A DNA stretch of 64,000 nt, from contig OZ025250.1 in assembly GCA_964019135.1 (NCBI GenBank), positions 53,381,357 through 53,445,356 on the forward strand, written 5' to 3'. The notes beneath the pieces are model-generated. The model searched no databases, was not told where the DNA came from, and saw nothing but the letters and a program-made list of their open reading frames with translations. The stretch is from Arenicola marina (taxonomy: Eukaryota > Annelida > Polychaeta > Arenicolidae). Of this stretch, positions 13,559 to 60,879 are shown in pieces. The translations under genes and the position numbers were made by a program. Within the stretch, counting starts at the first letter, position 1. Every line of letters starts with the position of its first letter.

Positions 13559-13934
13559 TGACCCAACCAAACAGCGAACAGGCGCGTAGGAATATAAAGC
13601 CGGCCACCAACTCTTCTGCTCCGGAAAACAAATTCGGTCTCTCCGGATAGCCACGGGCGTTCAGGATTTAAATTCAAGACAGCATATATTAATTTGACAT
13701 GGAGAAGAGGTTGGTACAACAAAAATTACGGAATATATTGTCTTAACCGACTCTACTGCAGATTTGTTCTCTTTCGGGGCAACAATGCCTCCTGCGTCCC
13801 CCAACGTTCGCTCTACGGCATTGTCAGGGGCCAGCGTATTTTGCTCGCCACATGGCAGGGCTCGCACCCAGGACATGATAAGGTTTCAAGTCATGTCGCC
13901 TTCACGCGGTGCTAGAGCCCATCCAGTGCCTGCG

Positions 13935-14345
13935 ACTGAGGTCTCTGCCGGTGCAAGAGGGGTGTTTGTGTCAGGGCCCAAAGTCACTGCCGGTGCAAGA
14001 GGGTATCTGTGCCAGGGCCCACAGTCACTGTTGGTGCAAGAGGGGTGTCTGTGTCAGGGCCCAAAGTCACTGCCGGTGCAAGAGGGTATCTGTGCCAGGG
14101 CCCACAGTCACTGTTGGTGCAAGAGGGGTGTCTGTGTCAGGGCCCAAAGTCACTGCCGGTGCAAGAGGGTATCTGTGCCAGGGCCCACAGTCACTGTCGG
14201 TGCAAGAGGGGTGTCTGTCTTACGAGTCGGACCTAAAGTCACTGCCGGTGCAAGAGGGGTGTCTGTCTTACGAATCGGACCTAAAGTCACTGCCGGCGCA
14301 AGCGGGGTGTCTGTCTTACGAGTCGGACTTATAGTCACCGCCGGT
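13935..14345 (+). repeat. Minisatellite of 41-48 bp units
   Basis: About ten units begin with ggtgcaagagg. Two alternating versions of about 42 and 41 bases form a dimer. The last three units are lengthened with a cttacgagtcgg-type insert. Because the unit is not a multiple of three, the peptide changes from copy to copy. Confidence 0.8.
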
Positions 14346-14365
14346 GCAAGAGAGGTCGGAGGCGA

Positions 14366-15640
14366 GGCGATCAAAGTCGTCCCTGGGCCCTCCGATGATC
14401 CACACGGAGACGAGGCGAGGGAAGTCGTCCCTCGGCCCTCCGATGATCCGTGCGGAGACGAGACGAGGGAAGTCGTCCCTGGGCCCTCCGATGATCCACA
14501 CGGAGACGAGGCGAGGGAAGTCGTCCCTGGGCCCTCCGATGATCCACACGGAGACGAGGCGAGGGAAGTCGTCCCTCGGCCCTCCGATGATCCACACGGA
14601 GACGAGGCGATGGAAGTCGTCCCTGGGCCCTCCGATGATCCACACGGAGACGAGACGAGGGAAGTCGTCCCTGGGCCCTCCGATGATCCACACAGAGACG
14701 AGGCGAGGGAAGTCGTCCCTCGGCCCTCCGATGATCCACACGGAGACGAGGCGATCGAAGTCGTCCCTGGGCCCTCCGATGATCCACACGGAGACGAGGC
14801 GAGGGAAGTCGTCCCTCGGCCCTCCGATGATCCACACGGAGACGAGGCGAGGGAAGTCGTCCCTCGGCCCTCCGATGATCCACACGGAGACGAGGCGAGG
14901 GAAGTCGTCCCTCGGCCCTCCGATGATCCACACGGAGACGAGGCGAGGGAAGTCGTCCCTGGGCCCTCCGATGATCCACACGGAGACGAGACGAGGGAAG
15001 TCGTCCCTGGGCCCTCCGATGATCCACACGGAGACGAGGCGAGGGAAGTCGTCCCTCGGCCCTCCGATGATCCACACGGAGACGAGGCGATGGAAGTCGT
15101 CCCTCGGCCCTCCGATGATCCACACGGAGACGAGGCGAGGGAAGTCGTCCCTGGGCCCTCCGATGATCCACACGGAGACGAGGCGAGGGAAGTCGTCCCT
15201 GGGCCCTCCGATGATCCACACGGAGACGAGGCGAGGGAAGTCGTCCCTGGGCCCTCCGATGATCCACACAGAGACGAGGCGAGGGAAGTCGTCCCTGGGC
15301 CCTCCGATGATCCGTGCGGAGACGAGACGAGGGAAGTCGTCCCTCGGCCCTCCGATGATCCGTGCGGAGACGAAACGAGTGAAGTCGTCCCTCGGCCCTC
15401 CGATGATCCACACGGAGACGAGGCGAGGGAAGTCGTCCCTGGGCCCTCCGATGACCCACACGGAGACGAGGCGAGGAAAGTCGTCCCTCGGCCCTCCGAT
15501 GATCCACACGGAGACGAGGCGAGGGAAGTCGTCCCTGGGCCCTCCGATGATCCACACGGAGACGAGGCGAGGGAAGTCGTCCCTCGGCCCTCCGATGATC
15601 CACACAGAGACGAGGCAAGGGAAGTCACCCCTGGGCCCTC
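14366..15640 (+). repeat. 48-bp minisatellite, about 26-27 units
   Basis: A 48-base unit (for example gaagtcgtccctgggccctc then cgatgatccacacggagacg and gaggcgagg) repeats without a break. On the plus strand one frame reads [16 protein letters not shown] per unit, within an open frame from 13764 to 15773. Several other frames on both strands are also open throughout, because the unit lacks stops in them. Open reading here is therefore not evidence of a gene. Variants (GGG/CGG, CACACG/CGTGCG) are mixed along the array. Confidence 0.9.
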
Positions 15641-16606
15641 CAGAGATGTGGTATATACCGCCCGGCCACGACCCAAGTCCTTGCGCCAACAGGCCGAGAA
15701 GACAGGCACCGTAACCGGCGGCACTCTGCAGGACAGAGTCAGGAACGTGATCGCCGGTGTCAGTGCATGGTAGAAGACCATGTGCATCGTATGCAAGGAG
15801 GCATACAAGAAAGCCACTGACACCTGTGGTGGAGTGCACCAACCGGTCGCAGATTTACGCCGGCGTAGTGGTTGCGCCGGCGTAACTACGTCGGACATAC
15901 GTCGGACGTAGTGAGGAATGTTAGGCCGTGTGCACCAAGCGGGCGTTGAGCGAGCGTAGTTACGTCCGACGTACATCCATGAAATGTGGGGAATTCCCAC
16001 TAGTTTCGATGGCGGATTTTGAGGAGCGACGTTTCTTTCAGCTTACAGCTCTTATAAATGTAAATTTAAGTATGCAAGGGACCATTCTTGGGCGTGGATC
16101 GCCTTCTATGCTAAATGGCTTATAAAAAAATGTGAGGAGGTTGACGTTGATGCAATATTCCCGGGTTTCAGTTAAAACAAGACATAGGATCATTTTGATC
16201 CAACAGTCGGCCAAAAGAACATATTAGTAGCATTTCACTCGGCTGTTCCCGCTTTTTGTGATATGTATTAGTGTGTGGCCCAGCTTGTGGCCTGCACAAG
16301 ATTTAATTCCTCTCTGTCGCAGACTCTCGACCTACGTGTGAAGGGTGGCGACCTAGGTCAAGGCCACGCCGCGGCATGCACCAGTAATGCCTCAGAACAC
16401 ATGCTTTCTGTAGGGAAGAAGGTTCCCCTCAATTTTATCGCTTCAGACAAAGCAAAGTATTTACAGCCTATTCTTTCTATATACAAGTGTATACTCTCTA
16501 GTTTAACACTGGAATGTGCATAGCACCTAGTGGCTTCGTTATAAACGCATGCGTTAATATTTAGTCTCACATTTGAAGCCAGATCTAAGACGAGATGGCA
16601 CGAAAT
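15633..16606 (+). repeat. Dispersed repeat, copy 1 (second copy at 57630-58605)
   Basis: From gggccctccagagatgtgg to the segment ending gagatggcacgaaa this is nearly identical by eye to 57630-58605. It contains an imperfect inverted stretch around tacgtcggacatacgtcggac (15890s) and a broken reading frame. That frame starts MADFEERRFFQLTALIN at 16011 and continues, one frame over, as KYARDHSWAWIAFYAKWLIK. This suggests an old coding exon of the adjoining PIF/Harbinger-type element. Confidence 0.75.
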
Positions 16607-28240: not shown

Positions 28241-31200
28241 GACCCATGTGAGTAACCCACCCATGTGTAAAGATCGTGTAAAATGTGAGTAACACACCCA
28301 TGTGTAAAGATCGTGTAAAATGTGAGTAATCCACCCATGTGTAAAGATCGTGTAACATTCGAGTAACCCACTTATGTGTAAAGATAGCGTGACATATGAG
28401 TAATCCACCCATGTGTAAAGATCGTGTAACATTCGAGTAACCCACCCATGTGTAAAGATCGTGTAAAATGTGAGTAACACACCCATGTGTAAAGATCGTG
28501 TAAAATGTGAGTAATCCACCCATGTGTAAAGATCGTGTAACATTCGAGTAACCCACTTATGTGTAAAGATAACGTGACATATGAGTAATCCACTCATGTG
28601 TAAAGATCGTGTAACATTCGAGTAACCCACCCATGTGTAAAGATCGTGTAAAATGTGAGTAACACACCCATGTGTAAAGATCGTGTAACATTCGAGTAAC
28701 CCACTTATGTGTAAAGATCGTGTAAAATGTGAGTAACACACCCATGTGTAAAGATCGTGTAAAATGTGAGTAACACACCCATGTGTAAAGATCGTGTAAA
28801 ATGTGAGTAACACACCCATGTGTAAAGATCGTGTAAAATGTGAGTAATCTACCCATGTGTAAAGATCGTGTAACATTCGAGTAACCCACTTATGTGTAAA
28901 GATAGCGTGACATATGAGTAATCCACCCATGTGTAAAGATCGTGTAACATTCGAGTAACCCACCCATGTGTAAAGATCGTGTAAAATGTGAGTAACACAC
29001 CCATGTGTAAAGATCGTGTAAAATGTGAGTAACACACCCATGTGTAAAGATCGTGTAAAATGTGAGTAATCCACCCATGTGTAAAGATCGTGTAACATTC
29101 GAGTAACCCACTTATGTGTAAAGATAGCGTGACATATGAGTAATCCACCCATGTGTAAAGATCGTGTAACATTCGAGTAACCCACCCATGTGTAAAGATC
29201 GTGTAAAATGTGAGTAACACACCCATGTGTAAAGATCGTGTAACATTCGAGTAACCCACTTATGTGTAAAGATCGTGTAAAATGTGAGTAACACACCCAT
29301 GTGTAAAGATCGTGTAACATTCGAGTAACCCACTTATGTGTAAAGATAGCGTGACATATGAGTAATCCACCCATGTGTAAATATCGTATGACATGTGAGT
29401 AATGCACTTATGTGTAAAAATAAGTGTGACATGTGAGTAACGCACTTATGTGTAAAGATCGTGTAACATTCGAGTAACGCACTTATGTGTAAAGATAGTG
29501 TGACATATGAGTAATCCACCCATGTGTAAAGATCGTGTAACATGCGAGTAACCCACATATGTGTAAAGATAGTGTGACATATGAGTAATCCACCCATGTG
29601 TAAAGATCGTGTAACATTCGAGTAACCCACCCATGTGTAAATATCGTATGACATGTGAGTAACGCACTTATGTGTAAAGATAGTGTGACATTTGAGTAAT
29701 CCACCCATGTGTAAAGATCGTGTAACATTCGAGTAACCCACTTATGTTTAAAGATAGTATGACATGAGTAATCCACCCATGTGTAAAGATCGTGTAACAT
29801 GCGAGTAACGCACTTATGTGTAAAGATAGTGTGACATATGAGTAATCCACCCATGTGTAAAGATCGTGTAACATTCGAGTAACCCACCCATGTGTAAATA
29901 TCGTATGACATGTGAGTAATCCACCCATGTGTAAAAATCGTGTGACATGTGAGTAACGCACTTATGTGTAAAGATCGTGTGACATGTGAGTAACGCACTT
30001 ATGTGTAAAGATCGTGTGACATGTGAGTAACGCACTTATGTGTAAAGATCGTGTGACATGTGAGTAACGCACTTATGTGTAAAGATCGTGTGACATGTGA
30101 GTAACGCACTTATGTGTAAAGATCGTGTAACATTCGAGTAACCTACCCATGTGTAAATATCGTATGACATGTGAGTAATGCACTTATGTGTAAATTTCTT
30201 GTGACATGTGAGTAACGCACTTATGTGTAAAGATCGTGTGACATGTGAGTAACGCACTTATGTGTAAAGATCGTGTAACATTCGAGTAACCCACCCATGT
30301 GTAAATATCGTATGACCTGTGAGTAATGCACCCATGTGGAGAGATCGTGTGATATTTGAGTAACGCACTTATGTGTAAAGATCGTGTGACATGTGAGTAA
30401 CGCACTTATGTGTAAAGATCGTGTGTCATGTGAGTAATGCACTTATGTGTAAAGATCGTGTGACATGTGAGTAACGCACTTATGTGTAAAGATCGTGTAA
30501 CATTCGAGTAACCTACCCATGTGTAAATATCGTATGACATGTGAGTAATGCACTTATGTGTAAAGATCTTGTGACATGTGAGTAACGCACTTATGTGTAA
30601 AGATCGTGTGACATGTGAGTAACGCACTTATGTGTAAAGATCGTGTAGCATTCGAGTAACCCACCCATGTGTAAATATCGTATGACCTGTGAGTAATGCA
30701 CCCATGTGTAAAGATAGTGTGACATGTGAGTAACCCACCCATGTGTAAATATCGTATGACCTGTGAGTAATGCACCCATGTGTAAAGATAGTGTGACATG
30801 TGAGTAACGCACTTATGTGTAAAGATCGTGTGACATATGAGTAACGCACTTATGTGTAAAGATTGTGTGACATGTGATTAACGCACTTATGTGTAAAGAT
30901 CGTGTGACATGTGAGTAACGCACTTATGTGCAAAGATCCTGTGACATTCGAGTAACCCACCCATGTGTAAAGATAGTGTGACATGTGAGTAATGCACCCA
31001 TGTGTAAAGATCGTGTGACATGTGAGTAACGCACTTATGTGTAAAGATTGTGTGACATGTGAGTAACGCACTTATGTGTAAAGATCGTGTGACATGTGAG
31101 TAACGCACTTATGTGTAAAGATCGTGTAACATTCGAGTAACCCACCCATGTGTAAATATCGTATGACATGTGAGTAATCCACCCATGTGTAAAAATCGTG

Positions 31201-32700
31201 TGACATGTGAGTAACGCACTTATGTGTAAAGATCGTGTGACATGTGAGTAACGCACTTATGTGTAAAGATCGTGTGACATGTGAGTAACGCACTTATGTG
31301 TAAAGATTGTGTGACATGTGCGTAACGCACTTATGTGTAAAGATCGTGTGACATGTGAGTAACGCACTTATGTGTAAAGATCGTGTAACATTCGAGTAAC
31401 CTAACCATGTGTAAATATCGTATGACATGTGAGTAATGCACTTATGTGTAAAGATCTTGTGACATGTGAGTAACGCACTCATGTGTAAAGATCGTGTGAC
31501 ATGTGAGTAACGCACTTATGTGTAAAGATTGTGTAACATTCGAGTAACCCACCCATGTGTAAATATCGTATGACCTGTGAGTAATGCACCCATGTGTAAA
31601 GATAGTGTGACATGTGAGTAACCCACCCATGTGTAAATATCGTATGACCTGTGAGTAATGCACCCATGTGTAAAGATAGTGTGACATGTGAGTAACGCAC
31701 TTATGTGTAAAGATCGTGTGACATGAGTAACGCACTTATGTGTAAAGATTGTGTGACATGTGAGTAACGCACTTATGTGTAAAGATCGTGTGACATGTGA
31801 GTAACGCACTTATGTGTAAAGATCGTGTGACATTCGAGTAACCCACCCATGTGTAAAGATAGTGTGACATGTGAGTAACCCACCCATGTGTAAATATCGT
31901 ATGACCTGTGAGTAATGCACCCATGTGTAAAGATCGTGTGACATGTGAGTAACGCACTTATGTGTAAAGATTGTGTGACATGTGAGTAACGCACTTATGT
32001 GTAAAGATCGTGTGACATGTGAGTAACGCACTTATGTGTAAAGATCGTGTAACATTCGAGTAACCCACTCATGTGTAAATATCGTATGACATGTGAGTAA
32101 TGCACTTATGTGTAAAGATCGTGTGACATGTGAGTAACGCACTTATGTGTAAAGATTGTGTGACATGTGCGTAACGCACTTATGTGTAAAGATCGTGTGA
32201 CATGTGAGTAACGCACTTATGTGTAAAGATCGTGTAACATTCGAGTAACCTACCCATGTGTAAATATCGTATGACATGTGAGTAATGCACTTATGTGTAA
32301 AGATCTTGTGACATGTGAGTAACGCACTTATGTGTAAAGATCGTGTGACATGTGAGTAACGCACTTATGTGTAAAGATCGTGTAACATTCGAGTAACCCA
32401 CCCATGTGTAAATATCGTATGACATGTGAGTAATGCACCCATGTGTAAAGATCGTGTGACATGTGAGTAACGCACTTATGTGTAAAGATCGTGTGACATG
32501 TGAGTAACGCACTTATGTGTAAAGATCATGTAACATTCGAGTAACCCACCCATGTGTAAATATCGTATGACATGTGAGTCACCCACCCATGTGTAAATAT
32601 CGTGTGACATGTGAGTAACGCACTTATGTGTAAAGATCGTGTGACATGTGAGTAACGCACTTATGTGTAAAGATCGTGTGACATGTGAGTAACCCACACA
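28241..32700 (+). repeat. 37-bp minisatellite, about 120 units, in the KDZ 3' UTR
   Basis: The unit is 37 bases and contains atgtgtaaagatcgtgt and gtgagtaacgcac or gagtaacccaccc variants. It starts about 20 bases after the KDZ stop codon. The left third mixes cccaccc and cccactt units ending in acattcg or aaatgtg, in blocks of about four units. The right part is dominated by gcacttatg units. On the minus strand all three frames are open and give 37-residue periodic peptides, which is a by-product of the repeat. Confidence 0.92.
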
Positions 32701-33060
32701 TATGTAAAGATCGTGCTTGTATCGTGCATCATACGAACTGTGTTCTGTTAGCCCATATATGAGATCTCATTGTGAAAAGGTGTGACAATAAACATGTGAG
32801 TAACCCACCCATATGTAAAGATCGTGCTTGTATCGTGCATCATACGAACTGTGTTCTGTTAGCCCATAAAAGAGATCTCATTGCAAAAAGGTGTCACAAT
32901 AAACATGTGAGTAACGCACTTATGTGTAAAGTTCGTGTAGCATGTGAGTAACCCACCCATGTGTAAAGATCGTGCTTGTATCGTGCATCATACGAACTGT
33001 GTTCTGTTAGCCCATAAAAGAGATCTCATTGTGAAAAGGTGTGGAAATAAACAGTATTTT
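32701..33060 (+). terminator. Probable 3' end of the KDZ transcription unit with three AATAAA signals
   Basis: Three copies of a longer block (cgtgcttgtatcgtgcatca, tacgaactgtgttctgttag, gagatctcattg, ggtgt) each end in AATAAA, at 32787, 32898 and 33046. Between blocks, 37-bp-type sequence recurs. The last block lacks further repeat after it, so 33046 is the likely original polyadenylation signal and the minisatellite expanded inside the 3' UTR. Confidence 0.6.
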
Positions 33061-38402: not shown

Positions 38403-41400
38403 ATGGCTTCAACTCATGATAGAGCTACCAAGTAAGTCTGACACTGCACTGATTCAGAACAGTGTCAGTTATAAACTGATAAAGTGACAAAATCACGAGG
38501 TCAGTCTTGGGTGATCCTGACAGCCTGAAAAGGCGCTTCCAGTCTGTGCCTGTGGCTGTGGCCTCAATTAAGGTCGAGAGCGGGTGGGCGGTCAAAAAAG
38601 ATTTTTTACATTTTTTCTCTAGATAAGTAGATCTATATCATGTCTGGAACTACCTGAAAATGTAATACAAAATATAGACCCTCTAGACTAGAGTCTATCA
38701 GCGCCTGTCTATGTCACTTCACCTGTTCACTAACAAAAAAGTTCGGGGCATGTTTGTAAAATTGGCTTTAACCTGTTAACATTGCGGTCAATGGGAAAAT
38801 CATATAGACTAAATGTGTTTTTTTCTCTATGTTTTGAAATCCCCTATAAATACTGGTCGATAGACTTCCCCAAAAAACTGCCTGCTGAAGCCTAGAATCC
38901 TGGTGAATACAAAAATAACAAACAAAAATATATGTTACTGAACTAACTTTTGCGCTATGAGTATAAGCTCTATTGTAACCAAAATAGGCTATAAAATAGG
39001 CCAAAAATGACAAATTGTCACAATTGTGCCTTTCAGCGCATATATGCAATCACTAAATATCTTGGTATTTGCTTGTAATACATCAAATACATGCAAATTT
39101 GGTGGAGGAAATATTTCTTTATGCGACATAGTTTGATATTGGTTGCCATTTAACCCTAAAAATTAAAAAAAAAATTGAATTTATTTCTGAAAAAATCTGC
39201 CAGGCGCCACCCGCAACCCACAACACAACAGTGTATAACAGCAATGCTAACTCAGAGGAATAAAATAACATCAAATACACTACAGATAATAGTGCAGAAA
39301 AAGCATACAGTATACCATAGGCATGGATTGGCATCACTCACATTTTAAAGTGGTCTTGATAGGGTACAGTACTTATTTTCATTGAATTACCTTCATATCT
39401 TTATCTATATGGTACTATTGTATTGCACAGTTACATTATAATGCTTGCAATAGCTCTAAAATGACAAATATGCAATAATACAATGGCCTTAGTTATTATA
39501 AAATGCTATAAAATTGCCTGTTCCTGGCAGTACGTGTCATTACAAGCAAGCAAGTACTTCAGTTTTGGTTTGGTCGAGCTTTTCAATATAAAGTGGTACC
39601 CACATGTATAAGCCTTGTAACTGCCGTGGCTTGTTTTGTCAGTTCCATTTCCATTATTCTCATGTTTCATCTGCCCCTGTTTCTTTATACATGTAAATTG
39701 GACACTTTCTTTGCCTCATCTATATGTTCCCTGCATAAAATGATCTTAATTCTTATAGGAAAATGCGAGACAAAGAGCTACATCCTAATTGGTCCTGGAG
39801 TGTTGATTTTGTTGCATTGTACCGGCAGTCTATTGGGGATTTTGGTTATATGAGCAAAAAAAAACTTTTGCACATTTGTTTCTGAGCCTTAACATTTAAC
39901 TCTCAAAATTTTTTGCTTTACTGTAGGAAAAGAACATTCTTCAGTGATGAACAAAAACAAAGCCTGCTGGATGAATATAGATCTGGCCTTACCAGCTACA
40001 GAGAGCCCAAAGACCAGAACAAAGTTTTGGAAATTTCACAAAAGACTGGCTTGACTGTGGATCAGGTTAAGGTAAATATTAGAATGACCAGGTTATTGAT
40101 ACTTTTAAGAGTATTTAACCTTTTATTTGCAAACTTCAGCTGCCAGGGTAATTCATAAACTTGTATTATGGCCAATTAATGCTATTTGTTTATTGTTCTA
40201 TGTGTAGAGTATTTCTATTTCATTTATATACTCTCTTTCTGAAGTATTGGGCAAAAATACATTACAATAACAATAATAAAGAAACAGTCTGTGCATTCCT
40301 ATTTGTTTCACTAATAATTTAGTTTTCTCCATACCTTCTGATTATTTCTGATTTTTCTAAATGTTATCTGACCCAGTCTCAAGTGAATGACAGGCTTTAA
40401 ATGAGGGTACGTGCGGTGGGAGGCAAAGGGACACTATACACATGCCCCTCAGTCTAATTGTGTCAATTATATGAACAATGCATGATTAATCTTGTTTTTA
40501 GGGTAAAATGGTCTCACGATAAAATTAAGGTTCATGTAATTTAATGATTAATTTAAAATGTTCTTCTCTTTGAATACCTTTCTCATATAAAATCCTTACT
40601 TTTTTGTTGATGAATTTTCCATTCCAAATAATGTTTTAAATATATATGAGCTCTATAATGCATAAAATGGTTCAAAAGAGTGATTGAAATTATCATTAAG
40701 AAGAGCTATAGCGGTAGTTAGTTGCTTAGATAATTTAGCAATGTCCCATTGCTTGAATTTTTTTTATGTTATATAAATATATATACAGATATATAACTAC
40801 AGACAAAGAGAGGTGTATGATATATATATACATACTATATGGTATACATTAATAAATATTTCCTTTTGATTTACTTTATATATCGCTAGTTAAAGAGCGC
40901 ATACACATGTATGATACATGTGTATGCGCTCTTTAATGTTCATATGCATAGGAAGCCAAATACTGTAGACTGGCAGACCTCACCCCACCCTGCTCCTTAC
41001 ACGCATCCTGTGGTGGCTACAGCTATGGAAGCTCTAATTGGGCTGACTGACTGCACAAGCCCGTTACCCTTTACTCGTTACCCCTCCGCCCCCCACCCCA
41101 CCAAAAAAAAAATGTAATGAAGTTTTGGAACAGCTGGAAAATTATTAATTTTTTGGCGCTGTATGTTCTGGAACACCCAGGTTTGTAATTATTTTTCGGG
41201 TGTTCCAAAACATAGGTAAATGACGGTATATAGAATATTCCTTAGCTAATTAAGGATTCATCATAAACTGTCACAATTTTAACTGTTAAAATGTGGGCAT
41301 ATAAAGTTCATATTTATTGTCAATAATAAATTTTTGCAGTCCTTACGTTCAACTTATTACTAACTACAAATACTTCTTTGGTTCCTGTTTTCAACCAGCT

Positions 41401-41712
41401 TTCAACTATTAGTTGCAAGAGAACCTTGATTTCACCTATTTTTCTAACGGAAGGGTAAGTTAGATATGCCTGGATCAAGTGAAAACTAGTTGACAAATGA
41501 CTGCAGTTAGCAGCTGAGGACTTCCTCTTATTTAAGTGAAAGTTAACTTTTCTCTTTCGTAAGGGAGGGTATAATTTTTTTGTTTCAGGGATATATAGAC
41601 ACGGAAAACAGCAAGACGAGAAATGCTGGCAAAAGACGCCTAAGGATTTCGGCACAGTTGAAAAAAAAAACTTCGAAAGGGGTATTCTACTCACAATACT
41701 TGACCGAACATG
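38403..41712 (+). CDS. Homeodomain-like DNA-binding protein, first three exons (partial gene)
   Basis: Exon 1 is 38403-38431 (MASTHDRAT plus two bases of the next codon, donor GTAAGT). Exon 2 is 39927-40071 (acceptor TTTACTGTAG, donor AAG|GTAAAT). Exon 3 is 41589-41712 (acceptor TTTCAG, donor G|GTAAGA). Phases agree throughout. Residues 11-27, KRTFFSDEQKQSLLDEY, fit helix 1 of a homeodomain. ISQKTGLTVDQVKGYI fits helix 2 and the start of helix 3, which is split by an intron, as in many homeodomains. The usual WFQNRR core is replaced by YIDTENSKTRNAGKRR, so it is atypical. After exon 3 the frame needs a phase-1 exon that I could not place before the TFII-I-like ATG at 42132. It may be a separate gene or the 5' part of that gene. 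Confidence 0.6.
40890..40936. repeat. Perfect 47-bp palindrome (23-bp arms)
   Basis: The arm at 40890-40912 (ttaaagagcgcatacacatg plus tat) is the exact reverse complement of 40914-40936, with a single G at the centre. It lies in intron 2 of the homeodomain-like gene, close to a TATATA-rich stretch. Confidence 0.9.
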
Positions 41713-41882: not shown

Positions 41883-42131
41883 CACTTTTTCGACGTCTTG
41901 TCAAAGTAGTTTATTGCGTACTATTGGCTGGCCTCCAGTGCGCTAATGTGGAGATAACACCTCTTGCCTTCTCTTTCTCAAGGCAGCGACGATAAATTTA
42001 CATAGTCCGTATAATGTCTTCTCATTTTCGCTGCTCATCAATTGCACAAAACTGTCTATTGATGGATAATTATAATAAACGGGGCTAATATACTTTTGTC
42101 GAAGATCGGCGTATAGCAAGACCCTGCCAAG

Positions 42132-45100
42132 ATGGCCGAGCTGGAGGAGGAGGCGATTCGTCAAAGACGAGCGCCGGGCGACTTTGACGAAGAAGAGCGA
42201 AAGGCCTACATAAAAAGCGTCATGAAGGAAATAAAACGCATGGTATAGATTGTGATGAAACCGCCACTTATAACCAATTAATATGAGTTTTGTCATATAC
42301 TGACAAAGTCATTTAATAGACTTAGAAATCATAAAAGCGCTGTTGCGCATTCCTTGCTGAACTATTTCTGTTTGATATTTAACGACGATGATGGCTTAAT
42401 TGCTGTTAGAGACAACCTTTTGTGTTCTGTGGTTAATTAAATGGGGATGAAAAAATATAGCGTTTGGAGAAGTTTGGCCAACCAAAAATGTTTATAGTTA
42501 AACAGTAGAGCTAAGATTTTGATATTCCTGCATGGAAACATAAGCCAACATTGTCTATTGTTTTATTGACCTGAATGCCCATATATAGCGGCATAGAATT
42601 CGTGTAACTGGAGATAAATATGCTTTGGTTATCTTGCCAGTGCGAGAAACTGGAAGAAGTAGGGGTGGACAGCCTGGCGTTTGTCGTGGATGCAACAACA
42701 GTTCAGTCTGTGACGTTGGGGTCCATGAAAGGAGTGGATTACTTGGACAACCACTCTGAGGTGGAGGCAACGTTCGTGGCGTACTGTGCAGGTATATATG
42801 CATCTATTAACATGTTTGTTACTCTTGTAACCAAACACTATAGCTAAACTAGTTAGATCACTTTCTCTGTTGTTAACCACATGCATATATGGACATACGA
42901 AATAAGTACTTCAGATATGTCTCCCAATTTCACAACACAAGGCTATGTTTTAATTTGTATAAACCCGATTTAAATTAGTATGTTGTTACCTTGCAATATA
43001 TATACTATACTAATACGCTATTTATAACCCGTGTACATCATGCTATACTATAGGCTGAAAACAAAAGGTATGACATCAAGTTTACCTTTGCCCACTTATA
43101 AAACGTATAGATATATAATCTATAGATCCATTATTCAAAGAGACATAAACTACTTTGTGCGCAGTTGATGCTCCGCATTCTTTTGCCATAAAATTTCAGG
43201 AACAGATGCGAGCAATCCAGTGTCAGTTAAGCAGATCAGGCGAGACGTTCAGGCCATGTTTAACGACAAATATTGTAAGCATACATCTACGGACCGTTAC
43301 TACGTATAGGGCCTGGACACGCCTCGGGCCGGATTCATAAGCTACACCGTGCTTACGCACGAAAAACGTTGTCGCAGCCTCTCTAGCTCCTGCCGCTAGT
43401 ATTTAGATTCAGAAGGACTTGTTGACTTCAACTGCGATACCGTCTTTTTACATCTGCATGTGTAACGTTGCTTAACGTCAAATACAAAACACCGATGGAT
43501 GTAAAACTGATAGTGTTACTGTAGAGTATCTATATTGGTTTATTCGTAAATTCATTTCATATACACATTCTTGGTTAGGTTTGTCTCCTCCACTGGCTTT
43601 CTTATGCTCAGCTGACATCAGGAGTCACCATATCGTCACCATATCGTCACCAATCTCCACGTAAACTATAATAAAGAAATACATTTGGCTAGTCGATAAT
43701 CCCTTATATTATCGCTCAAACTTCCCTGACAAGATTAAAGTTGAACATTTAAATTATGCAGTCACTTAGGTATACCATTACATTCAATCTTACGCAAAAT
43801 ATACACATTATTTCACAACCAAGCAATTACTTATAAACATACCATCTATGCAGTTATCTAGTTTGATTCATCCATTCATCCATTCTGACATGCTTCGCTG
43901 TTGCGTTTACATCATTTCTCATCGAAACCTAATATAACTGCCCCTAGGCGGCGTTCATAATCCAACAAATTCGCCACTCGCTAGATGGCGCTTACAGCAT
44001 GTATTGAGTGTTATGCATGTTTCTGTCATAAGCCGGAAAACGCGTTCTTAAATTTCCCGCTTAGATAAGTAGACTGCGTAGCGTTGAATGTACAGCACTA
44101 AAGCTACTGGGATGGGTAGTGGGGGGGGGGGGGAGGTGCGAAATTAGCCATAAGTGTAATTTACTATACAAAGATGTAGTCCTAAAAAAATTCTAGATGA
44201 TGCTAGCTAATCTCCGGACAGCTGATTAGTTTCTTTATCGTTTCAGCTGCCGCAGTTGGTCGGCCTGGCCGCTTCCCGTACAGCCTGGTGGATGCTGACC
44301 AAAGTGTCACGGTGGACGGTCTTCCACCTGGAGTCATACTGAAACGACCAAGCTGCTATGGCCGTGACACGCTTTCAAAAATTTGGTCCAACAGGGACCA
44401 ACTTACTGTGAAGCTGACAAGTAAGATATGTTATTTACAGTAAAAGATGGTCTCTATCAATAGACCATTAACATGGATAAACGTATACTGGATTCATTCT
44501 CGGCTTTCAAACAATCTGAAGATGTGTTATTGATCGTTACATCGAAGTTGCGTGAAGTTACTACAGGCACTTCAACAAAATATTACAAGCAACCGTCTAG
44601 GCCGCCAAAACACATTTGTCCATAAAGCACAGATTCACGAATAAGGATCGAGTATTTAATGTCTACCTAAAAGAGGGCCACCCTCTTCTGGGAAAAAAGG
44701 GGTTCTTGCAAGCAGTAAATCGGGACTAAAAGTTGCCGCAATGGGGAATTGAACGAAAACCCCTACGGTAGACTTCGTAAACAGATTGTGCTGTGGCCAG
44801 TGGTGTTTGAATGCGCATGCTTCTGAAGTCACGAAACCCAATTTGCGCATTGAAACTGACTGCTTTCATATTTGCAGGAGCCACATTGTCACGCCATCCA
44901 ATACAGAATTCGACAGACTCCAGTAAGTCGAAGAGTAATGCTACAATTGGGCAGGTGACTTTGAAGGCATATAACATATTTCGTCCCTCTTTCCTTAACT
45001 TACTATGGACCACTCTTTCGAGGCTTTTCGTAGACATGACGTGAGGTTGCCGTGCTACTATTTTATTGCAATGCGATGTGAAGTGTCAATGATGTATTGG

Positions 45101-48100
45101 AGTGCTATGTGTGTGAAAAGCCCGTCTGTGTGATCATTATCTTGACGTTGAGTGTTCTTATATCCAGCTGCCACCTCGTCGCGGTCCTCCAGCGCTATGC
45201 CAATGGAGGATGCCACTGAGAGACGTAAGTTATACAGTCAGATGTGTCTTGCTATGCGATGTGAAGTGTCAATGATGTATTGGAGTGCTATGTGTGTGAA
45301 AAGCCCGTCTGTGTGATCGTTATCTTGACGTTGAGTGTTCTCATATTCAGGGGCCACCTCGTCGCGGTCCTCCAGCGCTATGCCAATGGAGGATGCCACT
45401 GAGAGACGTAAGTTAAACAGTCAGATGTGTCTTGCTATGCGATGTGAAGTGTCAATGATGTATTGGAGTGCTATGTGTGTGAAAAGCCCGTCTGTGTGAT
45501 CGTTATCTTGACGTTGAGTGTTCTTATATTCAGGGGCCACCTCGTCGCGGTCCTCCAGCGCTATGCCAATGGAGGATGCCACTGAGAGACGTAAGTTAAA
45601 CAGTCAGATGTGTCTTGCTATGCGATGTGAAGTGTCAATGATGTATTGGAGTGCTATGTGTGTGAAAAGCCCGTCTGTGTGATCGTTATCTTGACGTTGA
45701 GTGTTCTTATATTCAGGGGCCACCTCGTCGCGGTCCTCCAGCGCTATGCCAATGGAGGATGCCACTGAGAGACGTAAGTTAAACAGTCAGATGTGTCTTG
45801 CTATGCGATGTGAAGTGTCAATGATGTATTGGAGTGCTATGTGTGTGAAAAGCCCGTCTGTGTGATCGTTATCTTGACGTTGAGTGTTCTTATATTCAGG
45901 GGCCACCTCGTCGCGGTCCTCCAGCGCTATGCCAATGGAGGATGCCACTGAGAGACGTAAGTTAAACAGTCAGATGTGTCTTGCTATGCGATGTGAAGTG
46001 TCAATGATGTATTGGAGTGCTATGTGTGTGAAAAGCCCGTCTGTGTGATCGTTATCTTGACGTTGAGTGTTCTTATATCCAGCTGCCACCTCGTCGCGGT
46101 CCTCCAGCGCTATGCCAATGGAGGATGCCACTGAGAGACGTAAGTTAAACAGTCAGATGTGTCTTGCTATGCGATGTGAAGTGTCAATGATGTATTGGAG
46201 TGCTATGTGGGTGAAAAGCCCGTCTGTGTGATCGTTATCTTGACGTTGAGTGTTCTTATATTCAGGGGCCACCTCGTCGCGGTCCTCCAGCGCTATGCCA
46301 ATGGAGGATGCCACTGAGAGACGTAAGTTAAACAGTCAGATGTGTCTTGCTATGCGATGTGAAGTGTCAATGATGTATTGGAGTGCTATGTGGGTGAAAA
46401 GCCCGTCTGTGTGATCGTTATCTTGACGTTGAGTGTTCTTATATTCAGGGGCCACCTCGTCGCGGTCCTCCAGCGCTATGCCAATGGAGGATGCCACTGA
46501 GAGACGTAAGTTAAACAGTCAGATGTGTCTTGCTATGCGATGTGAAGTGTCAATGATGTATTGGAATGTTATGTGTGTGATGTGTGTTTCTTAGCAGGCA
46601 CGATATTGAGCCGTCATGCGAAGTGCTACGTCCTCGAATGGCCCTTTGACTTGCTTTAGTGATCAGTGTGAACTGTTTTGTTTTATTGGAATATGTTATA
46701 GCTATGAGAAGTCCGACTGTGATCCAAGGAACCGGCATGCATTGCGAGCACCAGTGAGCCGTTCATGGGAAACTAAGGACGTGTTCGATTTACATAAAAC
46801 CAAAACCGATTCGCCAAATTGACTTTTCGACAGGATAGGACCGAAACCGGTTTGCTCAAAACGGTGAAACTATCAAGAGAATTGGTTTGACGGTTTCGGT
46901 TCCGCGGAATGGTCAGTTCGATCAACACATACACAATAGTTTTATCATAAATATAATGAATATAGACTTCTGGACAAAAGTATATGATGCTAATTTGTTA
47001 ACAGACAGTGCAATCGTGGGTAGAAAATGAAGCAGACAGCATATTTATCCTGGCATAACTTCATAAGCACATGGCCAATGCCAATATATATATTGAAACT
47101 GTAAACAAATGAAACTATGCGTTCGCCTTCGGGTGGGCAAACCGTTGAAACCGGTTTCAAAAACGGTTTGGCTTTCAGGTCGGTTTCAGGTAAATCGAAC
47201 ACGCTCCAAGACCCCACCCCCAACTGAGTCTTTCTCATGGTTGCCTGTGAATAGGCCTACCTATGAGGGCATAACCATACTAGAATAACTCGCTCATCTC
47301 AAGATATCAGGAGACCACTTCGCAATGATCATTGTGCACAAGTGAATTGCGCACATTGGCATTTTCACTGTTTGCACTATTGTAATCTCTTGCAGGTATC
47401 TCGTCGCCAGAAGAGCTGAGTGGGGAGGCGACCGAAGCCAGTAAGTTGCATTGAAAAGATGTGTTTTAGATACAAACAGATCGTTTCCTACTGTAGATGT
47501 AACCTCTGTTTAACAATTACGTTATTCTTATACACATTTAACTTGTTGGACCCGTGTTATGGTAGTAACCCGGGGAGCAGAAAAGTGATGGTCAGCAGGT
47601 GCGGTGGCCGTCTAGTAGCATGAAAAGCCAGTGATTCTCAGTAGTCTATTATATGCTTATGTGTGTGTGCTCAACGGCGGTGACACAACTGAAAAAACTC
47701 TAAATCTACGAAAAACACGTGAAAAAAGTCACCAGGGGCTTCCAAAAGTTGAGAAACTCATTTGAGAAGGTCTGCAGATCAAGAGGACAAAGATTGGGTT
47801 CTCCATTCAAGAGTGGCGAGCCCGCATTAAAACTTAAAAAGTTTTCCACGATGCAAGAAGGCGTTAGACCAGGCCGCCATTGTCTGCAGGGGCATGCTAC
47901 TGGTCGTACGCCTGTGCCTCCTGTACAGCCTTTTGTGCACGGTCGGCACTGAACCAGGCACCAATGGTTGGCCTCTTCCTGAGCAAAAGGGCAGTTCAGA
48001 GTCGCGTACCACTGGGCTCAGCTCATTCTGTGAGGAGAAGGGCGACGGCCCAGATTGGTTGGTTGAATATTCAGGACGCTTTAACCACCTTGAATCATAT

Positions 48101-49124
48101 AGCGTCAATGGGATAAGTAAGGGAGAATGGAGCTATGTTCCCGGGGTAATTTCCTTTGTGAAACTTTTGTGTTCATGACGCACAGTGCCGGTGTTACCCA
48201 GGAAACGTCTAATATCAGATAACAATGAGCTACAGTTGAGTGATAGTTCGCTGTGAGTAGCCATGTCAAAGTGCCCGACTACTATGTTGGCAAGAGCGCT
48301 CAATGTTATGTTTAATGTAGTCATCCACGCCCAAATATTATTGTCATGTACTACGCAAGGCACCGTCTGTCTGACTTGTTCCCATCATGGAGAAATGGAG
48401 GGGGTCGTTTTCCCACCAAAATTCTCTCATAGGGTCCCATGTTAAAATTTGGGATTGTTTTGCAGAAAAATTATACAAGCGATTTGCAAAATGTAAAGAC
48501 TGTGTACAAGGTACATATAGGCCCAATACGTGAAATAATTTGCAGCGTGATTAAATGGAAACTGAACGTTCTAGCGATTTCCCCGATGTTTGGTCGTATC
48601 TTTCAATGGTTAAGCAAATTTCAAAAAATGGCCGTTCCGCATCTGTTTGTAAATTTGGAAGTCGATATCTTAATGCATTCGAAAGATAATACATGTACAT
48701 ACATACATACATACATACATACATACATACATACATACATACATACATACATACATACATACAGAGTAACCGAACACACTGACGTAAGACAAAAATCGAA
48801 GATTTTAGTCTTAACAATGTGGGAACTATTTATTGCTGTAAGCTAGACCTAGCTACCTCATGGCTTGACTGTCAATTGATGCAATTTTAACTCGCTTCTT
48901 TGGTTGTTGTAGGAATCCTACTAGAGAGCCTGACAGCGACCGCCGCTATTGTGCCCGAAGAACCCCAACAACAGGATGTTTTCCCAGTACAAAGAGTCGT
49001 GTCGAAGAAGCGGTCGAGGGGTAAAACCATGTACAAGGTACTATGGGAGGATTTGTCCGTGACATGGGAACCCGTGGCAAATGTGCCTGCAGCGCTGAGA
49101 CGTGGGGTGAAGTATGAAAGTTAG
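42132..49124 (+). CDS. TFII-I-like protein with one GTF2I repeat, tandem Ser-rich exons and a C-terminal chromodomain (422 codons)
   Basis: Exons: 42132-42242, 42641-42791, 43200-43274, 44247-44420, 44878-44922, eight 57-nt exons (45168, 45351, 45534, 45717, 45900, 46083, 46266 and 46449), 47396-47440 and 48913-49124. Every junction is GT..AG and from exon 3 on all exons are phase 1 to 1. Start context is CCAAGATGG. Residues 28-88 ([20 protein letters not shown] ... [11 protein letters not shown]) match the TFII-I N-terminal region. Residues of about 95-170 form a GTF2I repeat ([44 protein letters not shown]). Residues 186-337 are eight copies of a 19-residue [20 protein letters not shown] unit. 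The C-terminus is a chromodomain ([20 protein letters not shown] then [16 protein letters not shown]) with F and W kept at two aromatic-cage positions and L at the third. The stop is TAG at 49122. Likely a nuclear, chromatin-binding transcription factor. Domain calls are by pattern recognition. Confidence 0.82.
45072..46590 (+). repeat. Eight exact 183-bp tandem units, each carrying one 57-nt exon
   Basis: Acceptor-to-acceptor distance is exactly 183 bases in all seven steps. Each unit is a 57-nt exon plus a 126-nt intron. Units are almost identical, introns included, so the array is recent or homogenised. Units 1 and 6 share TATCCAG|CTGCC at the acceptor; the other six have TTCAG|GGGCC. Introns ahead of exons 7 and 8 share a TGTGGGTGAAAAG variant. 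Exon number can change without breaking the frame because 57 is divisible by three. Confidence 0.93.
46777..47207. mobile_element. MITE in an intron of the TFII-I-like gene
   Basis: The left end, ggacgtgttcgatttacat, is inverted at the right end (ggagcgtgttcgatttacct when reverse complemented). Repeated aaccggttt and gaaaccg motifs lie just inside both ends. It is non-coding; superfamily not decided. Confidence 0.6.
47894..48116 (+). CDS. Possible signal-peptide exon inside the last TFII-I-like intron
   Basis: An ATG at 47894 opens [18 protein letters not shown], which looks like a signal peptide. About 56 polar residues follow, and the segment ends at a good donor (ATA A|GTAAGG at 48117). 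No partner exon was found and the start context is ordinary. It could be the first exon of a nested secreted-protein gene, a transposon fragment or chance. Confidence 0.2.
48690..48810 (-). repeat. (CATA)n microsatellite with dispersed-repeat flank
   Basis: About 18 tandem CATA units run from 48690 to 48762. They are followed by a minus-strand copy of the GATTTTTGTCTTACGTC family also seen near 1215-1290 and 4208-4330. At 1215-1290 and here the copy adjoins CATA-rich sequence, so the microsatellite may belong to the element. Confidence 0.7.
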
Positions 49125-49139
49125 TATCTATGTAGGGAG

Positions 49140-50654
49140 CGTGGTCGTTTTTATTGCGCCTTTGTCGATTTTTCCAAGGCTTTCGACTCCGTACCTCACT
49201 ATAAATTATGGCATCGACTGATAAATGAGGGAATTCATGGTAAGATTCTAGCTATATTAAGATCAATGTACTCAAAACTTAAATCCTGCATCAAAACAAA
49301 GAACAGACTCAGTGATTTCTTTGACTGTGAAATAGGAACGCGACAAGGCTGCATGCTTAGTCCATTTCTCTTTACCCTTTATATAAACGAACTTGAGAAT
49401 ATGCTTCGGGAACAAAATTCAAATGGCCTTTTTATTGATGAGATATATCCTGGTATATTTGTATTAATGTATGCTGAGGATATCGCTCTTGTAAATGACA
49501 CGGTTGGGAGGCTGCAAAGTGAGTTAAATGTATTAGGCGATTTTTGTAAAAACTATGATTTAAAATTGAATTTGAGAAGAACTAAAGTCATTGTATTCCG
49601 TAGAGGTGGTATTCTAAGGCGAAATGAAAAGTGGTTTTTTGATGGTCAACCAGTCGAGGTCACAACTTATTATAAATATCTCGGCATTGTGTTTTCTTCG
49701 TCCTTGAGTTGGTCTCCCGCGTTAAAGAACCTCTCCAGTCAAGCTGAGCGTGGACTGATGCTTGTAAAGAAAGTAATGAAACAGTGTGGAGATATTCCAA
49801 TTAATATATGTTTTGATCTCTTTGATAAAATGATCCTGCCTATACTCCTGTACGCGTCAGAAATTTGGGGATGTGAATACAGAAAACCCATAGAAAAATG
49901 CCACATCCGATTCTGTAAATATGTTCTGCAGCTGCCGCGGCAAACTCCCGACTGAGCTGCTCTTGGGGAGTGTGGGCGGGCGCCTCTGTATGTTTGGTAC
50001 ATCAGCAGGAGTGTGAGATTTTGGTTGAAATTGGTGACTGCTGAAAGACACGGTTATACCCAAGCTGTTTATAAAACTTTGTTTAATTTGTGTGAAGCCG
50101 GAAAGCAAACTTGGGCATCAAAAATTAAAACACTACTATTTAGATTTGGATTTGGCCATGTTTGGCTCTCACAGGGAGTAGCTGATGTTGGCTTATTTTT
50201 GAATTTATTTAACCAACGGATGCATGATGTCTCCTGTCAGGAATGGCGAGCAGATATCAATAGCCTGTCTAAGCTTGATACTTATTGTTGTTTTAAATCA
50301 GAGTTAAAATGTGAGCTATATCTAACTTGTGTTGTAAATCGGAAGCATAGGATCGCATTAAGTAAATTCCGATGTTCTTCTCATAAACTGGCAATCGAAC
50401 GTTTAAGGGGAAAGGAACCAAGAGAACGACGACTCTGTAAATACTGTTTGACTTTAGGTGTCAGTGAAATCGAAGATGAAAATCATTTGTTAACTACGTG
50501 CCCTCTATATGCGAATATAAGATCCCACTATCTCAGTTCTTGCAACCTGTCTAAATTTGAGGGTCAGCAACTTATTAAAAATAGAGATACTACGATTGTC
50601 AGAAATGTCGCGGCATTCATTTATCAGGCGTTCAAGTTGCACTGGGATCTGTAA
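49140..50654 (+). pseudogene. Reverse transcriptase and C-terminal region of LINE A, one in-frame stop
   Basis: One frame runs from FVDFSKAFDSV (RT motif) through GTRQGCMLSPFLFTLYINEL and MYAEDIALV to a zinc-type C-terminus (CKYCLTLG..EIEDENHLLTTCPLY). It is broken only by TGA at 49953-49955. The catalytic motif reads YAED where family members have YADD, so the first of the two catalytic aspartates is changed to glutamate. There is no endonuclease (5' truncation) and no RNase H. The RT pattern and C-terminal Cys-His motif resemble CR1/L2-group LINEs of invertebrates. The copy is inactive. Confidence 0.85.
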
Positions 50655-50696
50655 TTGTAAGTCGGTTCTTATATCGTTCATTTATTGTTGTACACA

Positions 50697-51880
50697 AAAG
50701 TGGTATTTCCATGGAAAGGAAATTGAGGTCATAGCTTATTACAAATACTTGGGCATTATTTTCTCTAGTCGGCTATGTTGTACTAAAGCTCAGCAGAATA
50801 TTGCTACTCAGGCAAACAAAGCAGTATCGGTTATATTACAAGTGTCAAAATGTACCAAATTTTTCGATATTGATATGCTCTGGATGTTTTTTGACAAAAT
50901 GGTTGTGCCAATCCTAACTTATGGTAGCGAAGTATGGGAATACAGTACTCATTGGTGTATAGAAAATGTTCAGAATAATTTTTGTAGGAGAGTTCTGCAG
51001 CTCCCGAGTTACACCTCTAGCGTGGCTGTAAGGGGCGAGTGTGGAAGACATCCAATTAGAGTAGTCTGTGTAGAAAGATTATTGAAATACTGGTGCAAAC
51101 TTATATACATGGATGAATCTAGACTACCCAGAGCCTGTTATATCATGATTTACAACCTTGATAGATTCGGCAGATCGACTTGGGCTACACATGTTAGAGA
51201 TATATTGTTTAAGTTAGGATTTGGTATTTGTTGGATATCTCAAGATGTTGGAAATGTAAATGTCTTCATGAATGAAGTAAAACAGAGATTAAGAGACACT
51301 TCCCAACAAGAATGGCAATCTGATATGGATAGCTCCAGCAAACTTAGAACACTAGCTCAATTTAAGTTATTACTAGAGCCAGAATTATATTTGAGGTGTG
51401 GTAACGTTATCAGTCACAGAAGGGCACTAGCCAGGCTGAGGCGATCGGCTCATAGCTTAGAAATTGAAAGGGGTAGGCATTGTAATATAGAGCCACAAGA
51501 TAGGTATTGCAAATTCTGTTTTAAACATGGGAAATATCTTGTGGAAGACGAATATCATTTTACTCTGGTGTGCCCATTATATGCCTCAAGTCGGGATAAT
51601 AGACTGCCAAAAGTATATACACGGTACCCCTCTTCAGAAAATTTTAACAGACTCTTTAGCAGTAAAAAACGACAACGTTGTTATGACTTTAGCCAGTTTT
51701 GTTTACGAAGCATTCAACATAAGAGAGTCATTTTTATCATCGCTGTAGTTGATATAGACTTGTATATATTTGTATTTGCACGTTATCTATATGCATTTTG
51801 AACCGAAAACTGTACATATGTACCATGGGCGTTGTGCCTAAAGTACTTAATAAACATTATTATTATTATTATTATTATTA
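50697..51880 (+). pseudogene. LINE B, a relative nested in the 3' UTR of LINE A
   Basis: The sequence tgtacaca at 50689-50696 recurs at 51881-51888 as a probable 8-bp target duplication. The body reads KWYFHGKEIEVIAYYKYLGI ... VLQLPSYTS ... CKFCFKHG..LVEDEYHFTLVCPLY. This parallels the second half of LINE A but is clearly diverged. A frame change near 51640 moves the true C-terminus (SFVYEAFNIRE) into another frame. The 3' end carries AATAAAC and an (ATT)n tail at 51849-51880. Confidence 0.8.
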
Positions 51881-59365: not shown

Positions 59366-60301
59366 TCATTCAACTCTTGGTGTCTTTGTTCGAATTTCTA
59401 TCACGGGCTCTGTCTGGCTGGATGTTCCCGTCTCCTCTGGGGTTTCTGTTGTAATTATTGCGAATTCCGCATCCGGTGGCCAGGAATAAACAGTGTTTAT
59501 TCCTATGGAAACCATGTTTGGTTTTGGTGTTGTTTCAGTGGTTTGGGTTTGGGACGAGCCCGTAACTTCAGCGAAAGTATTGGTTTCAGTTATATTTGTA
59601 GTTTTACTTTCTAATATTTTTCTCGCTTCGGGATAGGATATGGAGTTTTTAGTTTTTACTGTCTGTACCTCTTTTTCTTTCTGCCAGATTGGACACTGTT
59701 TTGAGCATGCGTAGTGACTACCTTCGAAAATTACGCAGTGTCTCGGTTTGCTGCAGGTGTCTTCATGGCCCTCGTCATCACAGCGAGCACAGGTGACTTG
59801 CCTCCTGCAGTTGGTCTTGCCGTGGCCGAAGCGTTGGCATTGGAAACAGCGTAGAGGGTTGGGTATATAGATATCGACTGGTATACGAAGGTATCCTGCT
59901 TTTATTGTTGTAGGAGGGATGTGAGATGCCAATATAAGTATTATGGTATTTGTTCATTCTCCATTTTTGGTGATTGGTATCCGTTTGGCCTCCATGACAT
60001 TTTCTGAGGCCAACTCAGAAACTATTTCAGTGTCAAAGCACATCTGAAGATCGCGGCATCGAATTACACCTCTGCTGTTGTTGAGGGTACGGTAAGGAGT
60101 TATTGTTATTGGGATATGGAGGAGGGCCGTGGCGCGGAGGAGGTTGTCACCAGGACTCCTCCGTGTGACCTCTATGAGGAGATCACCGGAGCGGAGTCGT
60201 TTGACATCTTTTGGTTCTCTGGCCAGGCTTTGGATGGCTTTGTCCAGTGCAAATTGTGATAGTTTTGAAAGACGTAAATCTGGATCTGTGGCGTGTGCCA
60301 T
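59366..60301 (-). pseudogene. LINE ORF1 (gag-like, CCHC zinc knuckles), frameshifted
   Basis: The first part (60301 down to 59954) reads MAHATDPDLRLSKLSQFALD through KRLRSGDLLIEV and YRTLNNSRGVIRCRDL, the RNA-binding region of Jockey/Nimb-type ORF1. A stop and frame change near 59950 follow. The second part (59932 to 59366) carries two zinc knuckles (CFQCQRFGHGKTNC, CARCDDEGHEDTC) and a third Cys-His motif. The protein normally packages the LINE RNA. It may belong to the same family as the ORF2 copies at 3307-11425. The sequence up to about 60990 is probably its 5' UTR. Confidence 0.8.
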
Positions 60302-60879
60302 GAAAAATCTTGAAAAATTGTCGTTTTGTTGATTTGGTTCATGTGTAGGAGAGCTTGTTCAAAGTTTCTTATTGGATCGTTCTTCTCGTGCTTTTATTTC
60401 TGCAGGTGTGGGTTTTTTTTCTTGGGCACTCAGGTTTGGTGTAAATATTTCACCGTCCGTGGTCCCCACCCACCCCGGAGCCCTCTCGGGACACTGATTC
60501 GGTGCGGTACTCCAGCACCCAGTGCCAAGGATACACAGACGGTATACTCGCATAACAAATAATTATTCTTCTGAAACAAAAGAGGTATTTGCCACTTGAT
60601 TAGCCCAATCCACCGTCCTAAGAGGATCTTGTTCAGAGCAACTGAAATATGAGGTGTCTCAAAAGACTCATTGCATACGGTTGTATGAATAATAGGGTGA
60701 AAATTGTGTTTGATATGATGTTGTTAAATAAGAATTCTTGGACTTGTCGTGACGAGCCGATTGATCAGACAGGGCCAAATCGGACCTCCCGTCTAGGAGA
60801 AATAAGGGTTAAACTGGTGTCTTGCAGAAACAGAGTTTCCACTCAACCAGCCCCGTCTTCCTCCGACACGGGTTGCGAA

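Follow-up and report, generated by a model that had tools for sequence, protein, structure and literature searches.

The stretch analysed here, 64,000 nucleotides of the genome of the polychaete Arenicola marina (hereafter the window; C3:53381357-53445356 of an 867-Mb assembly in 762 contigs), contains a gene that we assign to a small family. In full form its proteins begin with a degenerate homeodomain-like segment and a basic stretch, continue with a TFII-I-type N-terminal segment, a single GTF2I repeat and a low-complexity linker, and end in a chromodomain. We consider it probable that the gene belongs to such a family and most likely encodes a nuclear chromatin-associated regulator. We base this on an open exon structure, domain matches, colinear paralogs and constraint on the codons, and we also observe damage to one exon of the window copy. 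Gene models throughout were predicted from genomic sequence alone, and paralogs were sought across the whole genome. Mitochondrial sequence in the assembly (contig C762, with cox1) fits an annelid, and a vertebrate, ascidian or echinoderm source is rejected: judged by eye at conserved COX1 positions, AGA encodes Ser, ATA is compatible with Met and AAA with Lys, and the gene order nad3-trnS-nad2-cox1-trnN-cox2-trnD-atp8-trnY-trnG-cox3 (genes assigned by eye, five tRNAs by ARAGORN) is typical of annelids.

Fifteen exons between 42132 and 49124 join through GT-AG introns throughout into a coding sequence of 1269 bp (422 aa) with zero internal stops, and the introns from exon 2 onward are in phase 1. 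An initial annotation of this DNA had described 15 exons in consistent phase, with a TFII-I-type N-terminus, a single GTF2I repeat and a repetitive, serine-rich linker leading to a C-terminal chromodomain in one gene; both the exons and this order of domains hold, and the link between them recurs in other copies of the gene. It had also placed the start of the gene at 42132, which we revise: the counterpart of this exon (e1) in a near-identical copy on C13 begins 78 bases earlier, behind a phase-1 acceptor, and the window e1 is damaged, so the ATG at 42132 is an internal methionine of e1, with further exons at 38403, 39927 and 41589. The homeodomain-like N-terminus, the genomic paralogs and the damaged e1 are additions to that description. 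The gene and its borders are as follows.

38403..38431, plus strand: e0, proposed first coding exon (MASTHDRAT and 2 bases of K), ending in phase 2 at GTAAGT; proposed from its ATG, donor and phase
39927..40071, plus strand: exon HD, 145 bp, covering helices 1-2 of the homeodomain-like segment as far as a QVK border; found through the paralogs
41589..41712, plus strand: exon B, 124 bp, remainder of the homeodomain-like segment (YIDTENSKTRN) and the basic stretch
41900..42115, plus strand: repeat-derived sequence in place of the end of the intron, the e1 acceptor and the exon's first 60 bases
42115..42242, plus strand: remnant of exon e1 (188 bp in C13), including the earlier-proposed start ATG at 42132
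42641..42791, plus strand: exon e2, 151 bp, TFII-I-type N-terminal segment
43200..43274, plus strand: exon e3, 75 bp, encoding the beginning of the GTF2I repeat (match start ~43235)
44247..44420, plus strand: exon e4, 174 bp, encoding the remainder of the GTF2I repeat (match end ~44419)
44878..44922, plus strand: exon e5, 45 bp, linker
45066..46580, plus strand: 183-bp tandem repeat in 8.3 copies that include eight 57-bp exons in phase 1
47396..47440, plus strand: linker exon, 45 bp
48913..49124, plus strand: last exon, 212 bp, chromodomain (Pfam match ~48987-49085), stop TAG at 49122-49124
49125..50654, plus strand: 5'-truncated reverse transcriptase remnant of long interspersed nuclear element (LINE) type, in two open frames, abutting the stop codon and outside the protein

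Exon e0 is identical in the C13 copy, and the first exon of a more distant paralog, C3A, differs in sequence yet likewise ends in phase 2; exon B is 58% identical to its C3A counterpart. Eight of the 15 exons in the window model are copies of a single 57-bp exon; the low-complexity linker of this copy is a coding minisatellite. Within 45066-46580 each 183-bp unit supplies one such exon between phase-1 introns, and a change in copy number therefore shifts the protein by 19 residues per unit; the tandem exons number 8 in the window, 14 in C13 and 10 in C391.

The same arrangement recurs elsewhere in the genome. One copy, ~98-99% alike over most of the window gene, lies on the minus strand of C13 (25.29-25.31 Mb), and the block duplicated between C3:53.4 Mb and C13:25.3 Mb spans at least positions 30001-50413 of the window. 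When joined, the 22 exons of the C13 gene, separated by GT-AG introns, give 661 codons with zero internal stops, and HD (145 bp) and B (124 bp) fit in phase behind a phase-2-ending ATG exon. C391, which shows 1 mismatch to C13 in 3591 columns and ends short of the chromodomain exon, is probably the other allele of the C13 copy. Near 37.8 Mb on C3, all four loci found (4/4) carry exon e2 and, 1.1-1.7 kb away on the same strand, a chromodomain exon. C3A also has HD (145 bp), B (127 bp), e1 (188 bp) and e3 (75 bp), C3B and C3C begin within e1, and the chromodomain of the fourth locus is frame-shifted near its end. A third, diverged lineage at C12:662.6-668.1 kb (32% identity to C13 over alignment A2) has exons HD, B, e1, e2, e3 and e4 of 146, 121, 197, 151, 81 and 174 bp, and its GTF2I repeat (48.7 bits) is followed 2.7 kb further, on the same strand, by a chromodomain exon (27.4 bits); C399 carries the same pair of matches. 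Set side by side in the order window-C13/C3A/C12, exon lengths are 145/145/146 bp for HD, 124/127/121 for B, 188/188/197 for e1, 151/151/151 for e2, 75/75/81 for e3 and 174/absent/174 for e4, and the end phases are the same.

The genome gave 14 GTF2I matches: one in the window, those of C13 and C391 and of C12 and C399, one in a partial copy at C3:54.16 Mb, and eight others. Although weaker repeats may have escaped detection, no two of the 14 lie within 70 kb on one contig, and each gene thus seems to contain a single detectable repeat. Chromo matches stand near GTF2I in the window, C13, C12 and C399, C391 ending before its chromodomain exon; near the remaining 9 of the 14 there was none in a list of 150 scored candidates, which itself lacked the window's chromodomain. 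To look for the homeodomain-like exon in the other GTF2I genes (C6, C8, C3:20.8, C3:38.1, C7, C17 and C613), a query was built from the C12 gene; it gave eight matches, limited to C12, C399 and C3:54.16. The last of these, a partial relative of the C12 gene, looks decayed: its e1-like exon contains an in-frame stop, and reverse transcriptase-like frames lie within the copy. Another class of GTF2I gene is present at C17:30.37 and 30.44 Mb, where an upstream frame appears by eye to be HMG-box-helix-like (KWSTLAVADKASYEQKAASW).

Protein sequence in this family is under constraint, the chromodomain included. Between C13 and C3A, the proportion of nonsynonymous differences (pN) is 0.295 and that of synonymous differences (pS) 0.881 over 243 codons, with synonymous change saturated, and within the 40 codons of the chromodomain the values are 0.259 and 0.93. 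Differences at the first, second and third codon positions number 74, 52 and 136 in the N-terminal part and 15, 9 and 27 in the chromodomain.

The GTF2I repeat is the firmest of the domain assignments. Against Pfam's curated cut-offs (27 bits for GTF2I, PF02946; 25.1 for Chromo, PF00385; 22.9 for Homeodomain, PF00046), the window repeat scores 50.8 bits (aa 100-170, E 2.2e-13), with 51.5 bits in C13 and the C12 score also over the cut-off, and the nearest solved structures by sequence are repeats of GTF2IRD1 and GTF2I (10 rows, best 4.2e-9). The window protein thus falls within the GTF2I-repeat family and, with its one match, outside the several-repeat, vertebrate type of TFII-I. It shares the GTF2I repeat with the vertebrate family (GTF2I, GTF2IRD1, GTF2IRD2), and the N-terminal segments may be alike over ~52 residues. 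For this segment, exon e2 was compared with an approximate human TFII-I sequence from the leucine-zipper region: 0 of 2000 shuffles reached the score of the window, 1 that of C3A and 8 that of C12, and for the C17 gene 554 of 2000 did, so that three of the four genes scored above shuffles. The present family differs from vertebrate TFII-I in its homeodomain-like N-terminus and its chromodomain; vertebrate TFII-I members are not known to have a chromodomain. According to passages of PMC3493543, GTF2IRD1 has five repeats, compared with the one detectable in the window protein, and a polyserine tract after them; the window protein is likewise serine-rich after its repeat.

The chromodomain of the window is more than a chance match, as judged from a family profile, a predicted fold and conservation among paralogs under constraint. 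In a phmmer search of the PDB, the last exons matched MPP8 (E 0.00095), cpSRP43 (0.0096) and CDYL (0.012), and a profile of four family chromodomains matched 71 sequences at E <= 1, with CDYL and cpSRP43 tied as best at 4.7e-9. A single-sequence AlphaFold model of exon 15 (mean predicted local distance difference test score, pLDDT, 74.7; predicted template modelling score, pTM, 0.51) shows three strands together with one short helix. The best 50 of its 762 Foldseek matches are all chains of chromodomain proteins (prob 0.90-1.00), the best E value being 0.015, with 0 of 762 matches at E <= 0.001. Exon 15 is thus predicted to have the chromodomain fold. Sequence profile and predicted fold are shared with the HP1/Polycomb/CDYL/MPP8 type, whereas the loop between two tryptophans is two to three residues longer in MPP8 and CDYL than in the window family, and a third cage aromatic of that type is replaced by L in the window, C3A and C3C.

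At the other end of the protein, the N-terminal segment is best described as degenerate and homeodomain-like. In a profile search of the PDB, 20 of the 25 rows outside GTF2I carry homeobox, PBX or Pax names, 3 do not and 2 are uninformative, and the best homeodomain match is CDX1 (E 0.0062). Pfam gives a weak Homeodomain match in all three genes scanned, and an intron follows QVK. Helix 3 of a homeodomain usually bears W, F, N and R. In this family it reads GYIDTEN, GFIDTTK or NFIDTRK, with FIDT or YIDT replacing the usual residues, and we therefore do not class the gene as a homeobox gene.

How such a protein would act can be proposed by analogy. Vertebrate I-repeats bind DNA. Passages of PMC3438194 report an RGATTR core for some of them and, in the mouse, an overlap between TFII-I sites and H3K4me3/H3K27me3 promoters. 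By this analogy the single GTF2I repeat, perhaps together with the basic homeodomain-like part, would contact DNA, the N-terminal segment would mediate self-association or partner binding, and the chromodomain, by binding a histone tail or some other basic peptide, would hold the protein on chromatin or on a basic partner. A nuclear role, DNA contact and chromatin anchoring are all functions that we infer in this way.

Several observations weigh against assigning the window gene to such a family of regulators. Its Chromo match (aa 378-410, E 0.0022) scores 18.3 bits, below the cut-off of 25.1, as do those of C13 (18.8) and C3A (15.3), and only C12 exceeds it; the Pfam check suggested in the initial annotation accordingly succeeds for GTF2I (50.8 vs 27) and falls short for Chromo. 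All three Homeodomain scores (C13 16.5, C3A 15.5, C12 18.3 bits) lie below 22.9. In C3A exon e4 is absent, and with it the second half of the GTF2I repeat; Pfam gives no GTF2I match there. The HD exon of C12 starts in phase 1 rather than 2. Neither linker exons between 665147 and 667871 nor a first exon were found in C12, so its join of GTF2I to chromodomain is deduced from strand, the 2.7-kb distance and phase, and in a chromodomain tree C12 stands beside CDYL (support 31), apart from the window and C3. The window copy lacks the acceptor and 60 bases of e1; of the four AG dinucleotides that 42090-42131 contains, only one would put the frame right. Differences between window and C13 number 6 in 1126 exon bases and 68 in 8193 intron bases, too close a pair to show constraint since the duplication. 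The reading as a whole rests on genomic sequence and predicted genes.

That last point, together with the 1.5-kb last intron and the sub-threshold Chromo score, would also allow the chromodomain exon to be spurious or to come from a different gene, joined here by chance. We regard this as very improbable and reject it because of the colinear copies: the same N-terminal and chromodomain exons occur in the same order and strand in C13, in all four C3 loci and in C12, and the chromodomain exon is under constraint. We also rejected the idea that the chromodomain is part of the LINE behind the gene. An isolated fragment at C18:28.815 Mb (L011 4634-5071), 91.9% alike and with a frame break, covers sequence of the last intron and the chromodomain exon, and its homology stops exactly at the stop codon position, 49124, with other sequence following. 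Two successive LINE-type reverse transcriptase remnants occupy 49125-51801, the first starting directly after the stop codon of the gene; this first remnant is also present in the C13 copy and has reverse transcriptase relatives with PF00078.

As the initial annotation had it, the chromodomain may be an ancestral host domain or may have been captured from a Ty3-type element; it may have arisen once or twice. The nearest chromodomains outside the family in this genome lie at 14 loci and appear to be of Ty3 type (chromovirus-like); 3 of these, read 300 residues upstream, have what look by eye like integrase cores, and the short loop is common to family and elements. A tree of 17 chromodomains over ~50 positions groups the window, C3A and C3C with the elements (ultrafast bootstrap, UFBoot, 89; FastTree 0.988), and the window and C3 with element A (UFBoot 83; FastTree 0.988). 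The tree would thus favour capture or exchange in the window/C3 lineage over a common origin with C12, on too little data to decide. Its separation of C12, whose chromodomain is 51% identical to CDYL over 37 columns, makes the common-origin reading less likely. That the window/C3-lineage chromodomain was taken from a Ty3-type retroelement, and is not an old host domain, is nevertheless an idea we hold tentatively, as the less probable side of the question: the alignment is short, the support values stay below 95, the placement of C12 lies elsewhere, the tree gives no direction of transfer, and the identity of the window chromodomain to MPP8 (39% of 38 columns) is little short of that to the element (41% of 49). 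In contrast to Ty3-type elements, the gene has no integrase, reverse transcriptase or gag, and its chromodomain exon is joined by splicing to GTF2I exons. Scanning the window and C13 proteins with Pfam gave no integrase family, so neither protein is classed as a chromovirus Pol.

The initial annotation had called the chromodomain a methyl-lysine reader. In the alignment to MPP8, at what we take to be the cage positions, the window keeps F and W and has L at the third, and without this third aromatic methyl-lysine reading by the window copy is doubtful. C12, with F, W and Y, has all three. The chromodomains of cpSRP43 bind basic peptides, and there is a substantial chance, just short of even, that the family's chromodomain is likewise a protein-protein module and reads no methyl-lysine. 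The L at the third position in the window, C3A and C3C, a further L at the first position in C3A, and the tie of cpSRP43 with CDYL in the family profile all point this way; the presumed cage of C12, which is intact, points the other.

Just as close to even, in our judgement, and again a little under the balance, is the prospect that the window gene is a decaying duplicate: the C13 gene would have been copied in a recent large duplication and e1 then hit by a repeat-associated deletion, with loss of the full protein. Besides the duplicated block, this is favoured by the missing acceptor and first 60 of the 188 bases of e1, in whose place stands repeat-derived sequence (41900..42115 matches C3:37.814 Mb at 99.4% over 179 bp and 100% over 39 bp), and by the LINE remnant directly behind the stop codon, although the C13 copy has that remnant too. 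Yet the remaining 15 exons are all open with their splice sites kept, one in-frame cryptic acceptor is present, and the exon differences from C13 are few, though so are those in introns. Given the extent of e1 in C13 and the damage here, it may be that the window copy cannot produce the full protein, and C13 and C12 are more likely than the window to be working copies.

In a protein database, residues 1-186 of the window protein gave 955 candidates, and alignment A1 gave 7996 scored sequences, with zero homologs at E <= 1 in either search, which is weak evidence of absence, since length and shared words restricted the candidates and the database may contain few animal proteins. It did yield 245 relatives of the neighbouring reverse transcriptase fragment, and transposon proteins of that kind are therefore included in it. 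Other features of the window lie outside the gene. A 37-bp tandem repeat of ~121 copies (28245-32715) is also in the C13 duplicate, a 691-codon open frame (13698-15773) encloses a 48-bp tandem repeat of 26.8 copies (14357-15641), with long open frames on the opposite strand too, and stretches at 59366-60358 and 9969-11420 (minus strand) resemble transposon open reading frames by eye (zinc-knuckle-like, RNase-H-like).

No gene combining GTF2I with a chromodomain appeared in the titles and abstract starts of the literature searched, which lay outside subscription papers. In the same literature, a joint search for GTF2I and annelids gave a single match, a primer name in the part seen of PMC2938726, and passages of PMC12428995 held nothing on invertebrate TFII-I members. 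In a survey of transcription factors against Branchiostoma floridae and C. elegans, as excerpted from PMC8122590, tunicates are stated to be the sole group other than human in which the GTF2I family was found. TFII-I genes are candidates for traits of Williams-Beuren syndrome (excerpts of PMC4907016), and the origin of the I-repeat is not settled in the literature examined. One history, which we think unlikely, is that the ancestral bilaterian TFII-I was a homeodomain-derived, single-I-repeat, chromodomain protein, and that vertebrates lost the outer domains and multiplied the I-repeat. If so, the location of mouse TFII-I at H3K4me3/H3K27me3 promoters, described in passages of PMC3438194, would be a remnant of built-in chromatin reading. 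With ten or more separate GTF2I loci, single repeats and, at some of the loci, a chromodomain, this protostome genome offers an outgroup for testing the order in which these domains were gained or lost, and the coding minisatellite provides a ready case of length change between copies of the gene and probably between alleles.

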